DNA from: Promethearchaeota archaeon
GTDB lineage: Archaea; Asgardarchaeota; Lokiarchaeia; Sigyniarchaeales; SOKP01
Direction of reading: 5' to 3'
Assembly (NCBI GenBank): GCA_016840695.1
Contig: JAEORV010000028.1
Location: 1-9,685, forward strand
DNA: 9,685 nt
A program made the position numbers and the translations under genes. Under the pieces are notes generated by a model. It worked only from the letters and a program-made list of their open reading frames with translations, searched no databases and was not told the origin of the DNA. Of this stretch, positions 5,259 to 8,678 are shown in pieces; the stretch's first letter is position 1, and each line of letters starts with the position of its first letter.

Positions 5259-6401
5259 CTATTTTTTGCTTAATTCCCTAAATTTTTCAAGGAGCTCTTT
5301 TTGCTCGCTTGAAAGTTTATCAGGCATGATTATGTTGGCTATCACATATTGGTCCCCATGGCCTTTACCCCTCATATAAGGTACACCGTGATTCTTTATC
5401 CGAAATTCTGTAGCAAATTGAGTTCCCGCAGGGATTTCTAATTCTTTTTCTTTGATTACCTTACTTTTATGGTCTAATGTAGGAACCGTGATTTTACCAC
5501 CGAGAATTGCTGTTACAATATCGATGTCTGCTTTTGTATAGAGATCGTTCCTCCTTCTGATGAAATTTGGATCTTCTTTTACTCTTATTTGAAGGTATAA
5601 GTCGCCAGGGATTGCGTTGCTCGAAGGTACGTGTCCCGCACCTTGCATTTTGAGGTGAACTCCATCTTCTACACCCCCAGGGATGTTAACTCCTTTAATT
5701 GTTTTTGTTTCTTCAACTACTTTGCGTCCCTTGCAAGCCTTGCATTTCTTCATGATGATTTCTCCTCGTCCTCCACAATTGCTGCATTCTGTCTCGCGTA
5801 TTATCGTTCCAAATCCAGAACGAGTCATTTTTCTTTCCCTACCTGAGCCATTACAATCAGAACATGTGGCAATACTTGATTTGTCTTCGGCGCCAGTCCC
5901 CTCGCATGTATCGCACGGGACATATCTCTGAACTGTTACGTCTCGCTTAAGCCCAAACATTGCTTCTTCAAAGGACAAAGAAATTTTTAATTCAATGTCT
6001 TGACCAACTTCACGACGAGGTTGAGTTTGTCGACTTCTTCCCCCAAAACCACCAAAACCACCTCCGAATATATCACCTATCCCTCCGAAACCTCCCCCGC
6101 TAAAGATTGACCTAAATAACTCGTCGATTCCAGGGATCCCCCCACTGAAAAAATCACTCATGTCAATGTCTACCCCGCTAAAACCGTATCGATCGTAGTT
6201 TTGGCGCTTATTTGGGTCATTTAAGACTTCATACGCTTCTTGAAGCTCAATGAACTTTTCTTTTGCCTGAGGATCGGTTTTATTAATATCGGGATGGAGT
6301 TTTCTTGCTAATCTTCGATATGCTAACTTTATGTCTTTTTCTGTTGCATCCTTGGCTACACCAAGTACATCGTAATAGTCTCGCTTGTTAGAACTTATGA
6401 T
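5259..6401 (-). CDS. dnaJ: DnaJ (type I Hsp40 co-chaperone), full length, non-canonical or displaced start
   Basis: The open frame codes for a complete type I DnaJ of 380 residues, which stimulates DnaK ATPase and delivers unfolded clients. The J domain ([11 protein letters not shown] at residues 6-16, HPD at 36-38, [17 protein letters not shown]) is followed by a Gly/Phe region (about 85-122). Next come a four-repeat zinc domain ([33 protein letters not shown]163 to C223) and the C-terminal substrate-binding/dimerisation domain ending FRELSKK. The first in-frame ATG is at 6161, after the J domain, so a start there would lose it. Upstream the frame reads stop-ATC-ATA-AGT-TCT-AAC-AAG with no ATG, GTG or TTG. 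A start at ATC or ATA would suit the family length. An ATG at 6405 is out of frame and would need a +1 shift or a one-base correction. GGAG lies eight bases before the ATC. I give the ATC as the boundary. dnaK is divergent. Confidence 0.95.
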
Positions 6402-6409
6402 TCATCAAT

Positions 6410-6413
6410 CTCC
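6410..6413 (-). promoter_or_regulatory. Shine-Dalgarno-like GGAG before dnaJ
   Basis: GGAG on the minus strand is four bases before the out-of-frame ATG (6405) and eight bases before the in-frame ATC (6401). The spacing is more usual for the ATC than for the ATG, but neither is decisive. It is relevant because no standard start codon is available for dnaJ. Confidence 0.4.
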
Positions 6414-6636: not shown

Positions 6637-6645
6637 ATGATTTGA
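6637..6645 (+). other. Three-codon mini-ORF overlapping the dnaK start
   Basis: ATG-ATT-TGA precedes dnaK out of frame. Its TGA shares two bases with the TTG start (TTGA, 6642-6645). The overlap resembles stop-start translational coupling and could load or limit ribosomes at a weak start. Alternatively, a single missing T in the TTT run hides an ATG start for dnaK itself. Confidence 0.35.
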
Positions 6646-8678
6646 AAGTGACCGAAGAAAAACCAGTGGACGAAGAAAAGAAATCCACGAGAAAAGAAAA
6701 GATTATTGGTATAGATCTTGGCACGTCTAATAGCGCATGTGCGGTATTAAATGCCATTACCAGAAAACCCGAAATTGTTCCTGCCGCAGAAGGTAGAACC
6801 CTTGGAGGGAAAGCATTTCCTTCATATGTTGCATTTAACGAAGAAGGACAGAAAATTGTTGGTGAACCTGCTCGTAGACAAGCCGTAAGCAATCCTGAAG
6901 GTACGATTTACGCGATTAAAAGAAAAATGGGTCTTTCTTATAAGGCAAAAGCGAAGGTAGGGAGCGAGATAAAAGAGTTTTCTCCCGAAGAAGTCTCAGC
7001 AATGATATTAAAAAAGATCAAGAACGATGCCTCTGCTTATTTGGGTGAAGAAGTAAAAAAAGCAGTAATTACCGTACCAGCGTATTTTAACGACGCTCAG
7101 CGTACTGCGACCAAGAATGCAGGAGAAATCGCTGGTCTAGAAGTCGTGAGGATGATTAACGAACCAACAGCTGCTTGCTTAGCATACGGTTTAGACAAGG
7201 ATACAAAAGATAAATTGCTTAAAATTTGCGTTTTGGATCTTGGAGGAGGTACTTTCGATATTACGCTCATGGAATACGGTGAAGGTGTCGTAGAAGTCTT
7301 GTCAACTGCAGGAGACACTCAGCTTGGTGGGACTGACATGGATAACGCTATTATTGATTGGCTTCTCGATGAGTTCAAGCGAAAAGAAGGAATAGATTTA
7401 AGACAAGATGAAAAAGCGATGATTCGATTAAAAGACGCAGCAGAAAAAGCTAAAATCGAATTGAGCACTACGCTCACATCTTCGATAAACCTTCCCTATC
7501 TCACGCAAAAAGAAGGAAATCCCGTCCATTTTGAAATTGACCTTACCAGGGCAAAATTAGAATCTTTAATAGAACCAACCTTAAGGAGATTGGATCCAAT
7601 AATGCAAAGGGCCGTTTCTGACGCTAAATTATCTGCCGCGAACGTAGATAAAGTAATTCTGGTCGGAGGACCTACAAGAATGCCTTCCGTACAAGAACGA
7701 TTCAAGAAATTTTTCGGTAGAGAACCAGAACATAGCGTTGATCCAATGGAATGCGTGGCATTAGGCGCTGCAATTCAGGGTGGTGTCATCGCTGGCGATG
7801 TCGAAGATCTTTTATTACTTGATGTTACTCCATTGTCATTAGGCGTTGAAACTCTTGGAGGCGTTTCTACAAGATTAATTGAAAGGAATACAACGATTCC
7901 GACTGAGAAGAAACAAACTTTCAGTACAGCCGCTGACAATCAACCTGCAGTAACAATAAACGTGCTTCAAGGGGAGAGAACGATGGCAAAGGATAATATC
8001 TCTTTGGGAACATTCCATCTAACTGGTATACCTCCCGCTCCAAGAGGGATGCCACAGATTGAAGTTAAATTTTCAATTGATGCTGATGGAATCGTACACG
8101 TCACGGCGAAAGATTTAGGAACTGGTAAAGAAACGGGAATCACAGTCACTGGAGCTAAAGGATTATCTGAAGAAGAAATTGCCCAAAAAGTAAGAGACGC
8201 TGAGATGTATGAAGACGAAGATAAAAAACTTAGAGAACAGATCGAAGCTAAGAATACCGCCGAATCAATGATTTACCAAACAAGGAAATTAATGGAAGAT
8301 AACAAGGATAAAATCCAACCTGAGGAAGGAGAAGCCATTGAAGCCGCAATCACGTCGCTTGAAGATGACATTCGATCCGAAGATGTAGAACGAATCAAAG
8401 CAGGGATGGAGAACCTTCAGAAATCGATGTATGGCTTCTCGCAGAGAATATATGGCGATCAAGCTCAACAACAAGCATACCAACAAGCTGCAGAACAAGC
8501 GCAAAGAGCTGCAGGTGGCATGGGAGGAATGCCTCCAGGCGGAATGGGTGGAGGGCCTCCTGGTGGAATGGGTGACATGGGAGGTGCTGGATCTGGTGGC
8601 GCGTCCTATAAAACCGAAGAGAAAAAAGACGACAAGAAAAAGGTTGTTGATGTCGATTGGGACGAAGAGGATAGTTAA
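6642..8678 (+). CDS. dnaK: DnaK (Hsp70 chaperone)
   Basis: A full-length 678-residue Hsp70 that folds and protects proteins in an ATP-dependent cycle with DnaJ and GrpE, all encoded here. The ATPase domain has [10 protein letters not shown] (22-31), [10 protein letters not shown] (145-154), NEPTAA (173-178), DLGGGTFD (199-206) and VGGPTRMP (341-348). The interdomain linker and first beta strand are at [11 protein letters not shown] (394-404), followed by the peptide-binding domain to about 505. A helical lid runs to about 605. A Gln/Ala-rich segment, a Gly/Met/Pro-rich tail (625-653) and the acidic end DVDWDEEDS follow. The Gram-negative insertion near residue 100 is absent. The start is ambiguous: TTG at 6642 gives a charged 20-residue extension before the ATPase core, and GTG at 6648 is a close alternative. 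An in-frame TAG at 6618 excludes a longer form. dnaJ is divergent and grpE follows after 59 bases. Confidence 0.98.

Follow-up and report, generated by a model that had tools for sequence, protein, structure and literature searches.

The dnaJ gene of the window (the whole 9,685-nt stretch of DNA that was analysed) reaches its J domain with no preceding ATG, GTG or TTG, and its translation probably starts at the AUA codon at 6398-6396, which would be placed by a Shine–Dalgarno (SD)-like stretch, GGAGATTGA, six bases 5' of it. Furthermore, near-cognate starts behind SD sequences look like a standing class of genes in this Lokiarchaeal family, a reading made from sequence comparison. It is well supported by two conserved genes and by G029, a genome in one contig from a different genus of the family; the count in G000, the genome to which the window belongs, gives it weaker support.

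The dnaJ locus

The gene lies on the minus strand, divergent from dnaK, and the features discussed below are collected in Table 1. Its 5' end reads, in frame, TGA (6407-6405) TGA (6404-6402) ATC ATA AGT TCT AAC AAG CGA GAC TAT TAC; the TGA at 6404-6402 had been reported in the initial annotation and is confirmed here, with the addition of a second TGA in tandem. The earliest ATG, GTG or TTG in the frame is residue 80, counted from the ATA, and lies 3' of the J domain (residues 7-69 in the Pfam search from the ATA); the zinc domain and the C-terminal domain cover residues 162-226 and 135-359, respectively. All three families (PF00226, PF00684 and PF01556) score above cut-off and the HPD motif is intact, i.e., the product is a complete type I DnaJ. 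The initial annotation, which held that no canonical start precedes the J domain and that its intact HPD is encoded upstream of the ATG at 6161, was thus correct in both respects. Its further expectation, that an automatic caller would lose the J domain, is true of the mechanical list of open reading frames (ORFs), in which dnaJ appears only as a 300-aa piece from 6161, and fits the annotation of a database relative (P0002) described below.

Table 1. Features of the dnaJ locus, in coordinates of the window.
Feature	Position	Strand	Remarks
dnaJ coding frame, ATA to stop	5259..6398	-	379 codons and stop; three DnaJ Pfam domains; conserved against G002
Proposed start codon AUA (use as start inferred)	6396..6398	-	Homologous to the ATG of relatives and the ATT of G002
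Tandem in-frame stops TGA TGA bounding the dnaJ frame	6402..6407	-	Read from the sequence
J domain (PF00226), 5' of the first in-frame ATG	6192..6380	-	97 bits, profile positions 1-63
First canonical in-frame start, ATG (residue 80)	6159..6161	-	Read from the sequence
Out-of-phase mini-frame ATG AAT CAT AAG TTC TAA	6388..6405	-	TTC-TAA-C junction not in G002
SD-like stretch GGAGATTGA	6405..6413	-	Ends 6 nt 5' of the AUA; imperfect match to GGAGGTGA

The part of the gene that precedes the first ATG is genuine coding sequence and under purifying selection; between the window and G002, a member of the same genus, its 78 codons have a pN of 0.085 (pS 0.90, saturated), below the pN of 0.145 (pS 0.82) of the remaining 300 codons. 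This low pN, together with an intact frame and three DnaJ domains above cut-off, argues against a start that is truly lost, which would leave no full-length DnaJ and only a J-less form from the ATG at 6161, or a decaying gene; such a loss is considered very unlikely, even though the same genome holds a paralogous dnaJ with an ordinary ATG (L001/G000:C260), by which the DnaJ function could be covered.

Upstream of the frame, the GGAG noted in the initial annotation is found at 6413-6410, eight bases 5' of the ATC. In the window, GGAGATTGA is followed by 6 nt and then ATA; in the dnaJ of G002, GAGGTTGA is followed by 6 nt and then ATT, so that the distance is the same in both genes and fits an SD, the match of the window's GGAGATTGA to GGAGGTGA being imperfect. 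A 16S tail of the family was searched for, and none was found among the loci examined. A comparable leader is that of the Pyrococcus abyssi aEF1A model mRNA, described as GGAGGUGA, five bases and AUG; the SD-like stretch of the dnaJ leader resembles this GGAGGUGA-type SD, and the leader differs in a spacer of 6 nt rather than 5 nt and in a start codon that is AUG in P. abyssi (PMC6237735).

The start codon in dnaJ orthologs

The 5' ends of dnaJ orthologs from the family were read. Of 44 loci of other genera (L024-L067), 43 have ATG as the homologous start codon and L051 alone has TTG, and the following codon is mostly AGT or AGC; two of these loci (L030 and L046) read ATC ATG AGT TCT, one base from the ATC ATA AGT TCT of the window. 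In G002, the only genome of the window's genus in which a further ortholog was found, dnaJ (L004, with the same 5' end as L011) reads TGA AGA AGG ATT AGT AAC, with ATT at the homologous place and no canonical codon before residue 39; a search of a third member of the genus, G001, for a dnaJ ortholog yielded only the paralogous dnaK/dnaJ locus. Hence, a near-cognate codon occupies the start place in 2/2 dnaJ loci of the genus (ATA in the window and ATT in G002).

Eight sequences read from the protein database extend this comparison. P0002 (a DnaJ 92% identical to that of the window, with 14 member sequences) fits the pattern: its annotated sequence opens with MARKLHPD, midway through the J domain, which we infer from the protein record to be the outcome of a caller finding no earlier start. 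Two close relatives, P0001 (84% identical) and P0003, begin with M. In the DnaJ tree, the window groups with P0002 and P0001 (support 100/99), and G002 groups with P0003 (100/97). Because P0001 falls with the window and P0003 with G002, and both begin with M (assumed to stand for ATG, GTG or TTG), the AUG of dnaJ was probably lost at least twice in the genus, as judged from these sequences; a single loss is less likely, with the M-starting proteins split between both groups, and the clade as a whole is not fixed for the near-cognate start.

These comparisons also bear on the possibility, put forward in the initial annotation, of a mistake in sequencing or assembly, either in the start codon or in one base near the junction. 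The window is a Lokiarchaeota contig (C109), its assembly comprises 558 contigs and is 74% complete, and a single base separates ATG from ATA; nevertheless, an error is highly improbable, since G002, a separate assembly, also lacks an ATG and has a different codon, the 14-member P0002 represents a third lineage annotated from the middle of its J domain, and the same pattern recurs in other genes of the family, where 15 of 29 ThiF-like orthologs from 15 assemblies would be hard to account for as errors. A close relative with one base fewer, placing the ATG at 6405 in frame, had been named as the sign of such an error; G002 has no ATG there.

Programmed +1 frameshifting is known from prfB (RF2), which the dnaJ leader resembles in that an SD-like stretch and an ATG open a short upstream frame, out of phase and closed by a stop, and from which it differs in that the slip junction is not conserved in G002. 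It is very unlikely that dnaJ is translated in this way, from the ATG at 6405 behind GGAG with a slip at TTC-TAA-C into the J-domain frame: the mini-frame opens one base off the dnaJ phase, as first described, its ATG has the GGAG 4 nt 5' of it and a +1 step would join it to the J domain, but G002 has neither the ATG at that place nor TTC-TAA-C, its corresponding frame ending elsewhere, tRNA-Phe, once moved from UUC to UCU, would be expected to pair poorly at the second base, and the leaders examined of other near-cognate-start genes contain no such mini-frame.

Initiation at AUC or AUA, the remaining proposal of the initial annotation, is supported and can be narrowed to the AUA, because this codon is homologous to the ATG of relatives and has the right spacing from the SD-like stretch. 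Initiation at this AUA is favoured over a frameshift or an error because the codon is homologous to the start of the orthologs, is ATT in G002 and stands 6 nt behind an SD-like stretch, and because the slip junction is missing from G002.

Proposed mode of initiation

In the proposed mechanism, the SD duplex would set the AUA in the P site, where the initiator Met-tRNA would pair imperfectly with the codon and the SD pairing would compensate. The initiator Met-tRNA would accept AUA at a lower rate, resulting in a reduced output of a DnaJ that carries an N-terminal Met, and dnaJ would belong to a class of genes that start at near-cognate codons (AUA, AUU, AUC and ACG) behind SD sequences in at least three genera of the Lokiarchaeota family. 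Archaeal aIF1 is reported to act against non-AUG complexes, which would count against the AUA start of dnaJ (PMC6237735). A SUI1 (aIF1) gene was found in G002, G007 and G029 and not in the incomplete G000, an observation that is undecisive for the start question. A search of 800 kb of G029 with ARAGORN returned no tRNA gene; some stretches read N, and masking or introns may be the cause.

Near-cognate starts in other genes of the family

A sample of 80 contigs of G000 besides the window (547 kb) was compared with 800 kb of G029, sampled as 40 stretches, and both genomes contained genes whose homologous start place lacks a canonical codon. A first comparison gave 23 candidates among 155 ORFs, many of which were antisense shadow frames or had ordinary starts; a filtered comparison flagged 14 of 150 genes in G000 and 21 of 184 in G029, only part of which are real cases of a missing start, the remaining flags being explained by an alignment that extends beyond an ordinary ATG, by stretches masked as N, by a distant partner or by a TGA that splits the gene. 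When 10 proteins were submitted to Pfam, domains were located 5' of the first canonical codon in four proteins besides DnaJ; in the same set, one protein had no family, and L169, L108 and L104:7277 returned nothing bearing on the N-terminus.

For instance, a ThiF-family gene of G029 reads GGTGA, six bases and ATA, with the next canonical codon at residue 69, and a response regulator of the same genome has ATA with the next canonical codon at residue 89; of two RagA-type GTPases in G029, one has ATT and a canonical codon at residue 8, and the other has ACG and a canonical codon at residue 6. Similarly, an enoyl-CoA hydratase of G000 reads AGAGGTGA TTAAGA ACG GAA TTT, and its tandem paralog reads GAGAGGTGA TTAAAT ATG GAT TTT.

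The ThiF-like gene was followed in 30 loci from 30 genomes, out of 54 family genomes with an ortholog, and 29 loci were scorable, one being cut by a contig end. AUH with no canonical codon back to the upstream stop was found in 15/29 (13 from one genus and 2 from another), as ATA in 2, ATT in 9 and ATC in 4, followed in every case by TTA (Leu); the next canonical codon lies 29-125 residues downstream, and in 13 of the 15 a spacer of exactly six bases separates GTGA from the AUH, with the full GGTGA in 7. Among the other loci, six have AUH preceded at three codons' distance by an in-frame GTG inside the SD-like stretch, five have ATG, and three have GTG or TTG.

The gene without a Pfam family, which is presumably QueG-like, reads GGTGA, six bases and ATT in G000, G029 and G033. 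Its start place was examined at 30 loci, half of which (15/30) were not scored, being distant, ambiguous or unmatched; AUH was found at 8 loci (L223, L224, L232, L233, L234, L244, L250 and L252) and ATG at 7 (L225-L231). The QueG-like gene of G029 (L154, 5838-6618, minus strand) is shorter, at 260 codons; its match to the orthologs ends after the first 119 residues, and it is possibly a broken copy.

Codons behind GGTGA

Since a spacer of six puts the TGA of GGTGA in frame, frames beginning right behind GGTGA were tallied at their third codon, using non-overlapping ORFs of at least 100 codons and counting ATA, ATT, ATC or ACG as near-cognate. In G029, a near-cognate codon occurs at this place in 9/16 ORFs, versus 12/110 behind other TGAs (Fisher p 1.0e-4) and 9/80 when the adjacent codons in these ORFs are scored instead (p 2.1e-4). 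The corresponding count in G000 is 4/15, versus 11/99 behind other TGAs, which is not significant (p 0.11), and 3/75 at neighbouring codons (p 0.014). An Escherichia coli control of four stretches (200 kb) gave 0/5 versus 5/62, none of the five having a near-cognate or canonical third codon, and says little because five GGTGA-led ORFs are too small a sample.

Taken over G000, G029 and other loci of the family, 35 GGTGA-led ORFs have a near-cognate codon in 14 cases, ATG, GTG or TTG in 14 and another codon in 7, some of the near-cognate 14 being doubtful, as L158 (G029) looks antisense and both L211 (G000) and one ORF in L005 have an adjacent ATG. The dnaJ of the window stands outside this tally because its SD-like stretch is not an exact GGTGA. 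A looser scan for SD sequences (at least 6 nt, spacing ±1) was noisy, with ATG at the right spacing in 24/95 cases in G000 and 15/119 in G029, and many other codons.

At a number of further loci, including L135 (5899-7351, plus strand), L101 (1599-2268, plus strand) and L117 (8664-9618, plus strand), a 5-nt spacer brings the GTG of GGTGA in frame, three codons before AUA, AUC or AUU; gene callers would take this GTG, which is part of the SD, as the start.

Relation to known systems and implications

In Escherichia coli, infC and pcnB start at AUU, which is held to limit their expression, and infC is autoregulated by IF3; the putative start of dnaJ in G002 is likewise AUU, but the E. coli cases are single genes in a bacterium. 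The closest parallel with measurements is Staphylococcus aureus, in which infC (AUA), ccpN (AUA) and cvfC1 (AUU) are described as having near-cognate starts that are conserved among relatives and lie behind strong or extended SD sequences, with AUA and AUU reporters giving about 10% of the AUG output in RPMI and up to 30% for ccpN in BHI (PMC13009471). The proposed starts in the family studied here resemble these in being AUA or AUU behind an SD; however, the S. aureus case concerns four reported sites in a bacterium with IF3 (PMC13009471), whereas the Lokiarchaeal case concerns an archaeon, includes ATC and ACG, and extends to many genes whose starts are predicted from sequence.

Archaeal start codons are named as AUG, GUG and UUG, and SD sequences are described as rare or not prevalent in Lokiarchaea, in one case on annotated starts, in passages of two sources (PMC7531240, PMC12993045). 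Across 36 prokaryote groups, an excerpt of a further study gives one switch to AUU among 61,358 ancestral AUGs, and near-cognate starts at the level seen in this family would therefore be unusual (PMC5622118). Among the matches listed in a literature search, as far as their titles and abstract openings reveal, no report of near-cognate starts in Asgard archaea was found.

It appears probable, though with appreciably less confidence than the dnaJ start itself, that the family has a two-tier start code, in which, besides those starting at AUG, GUG or UUG, genes behind a GGTGA-type SD, dnaJ included, start at AUA, AUU, AUC or ACG; callers would truncate these genes and make SD sequences look rarer in Lokiarchaea, and the initiator machinery would be more permissive than that of any archaeon studied. 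If so, a lineage close to the origin of eukaryotes would use near-cognate starts regularly, as a class of their own rather than exceptionally. Standard annotation would shorten the proteins concerned; in protein sets built on ATG, GTG and TTG only, DnaJ, ThiF/E1-like proteins, GTPases and signalling proteins would be truncated, and these are the kinds on which comparisons between Asgard archaea and eukaryotes draw. Annotation may also account in part for the scarcity of SD sequences reported for Lokiarchaea. Moreover, the stringency of archaeal start selection by aIF1, aIF2 and initiator tRNA would become directly testable with natural leaders.

Additional observations

The dnaK gene of the window (plus strand) has TTG at 6642 and GTG at 6648 (region 6642-6650) and no early ATG, and its G002 ortholog begins at ATG; in the species of the window, weak starts may be a property of both chaperone genes, dnaK and dnaJ. 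At the second dnaK/dnaJ locus (G000:C260, G002:C75 and G001:C168), the DnaK match contains one internal stop in each genome (TGA, TGA and TAA, respectively).

Selenocysteine in an HdrA-like protein is known for Lokiarchaeota. A gene of G029 (L162, minus strand) that matches one long frame of G000 is split by in-frame TGAs at about 5650-5652 and 6202-6204, one of which sits at the place of a Cys in its partner (CHCG), and these TGAs look like selenocysteine codons of an HdrA-like protein.
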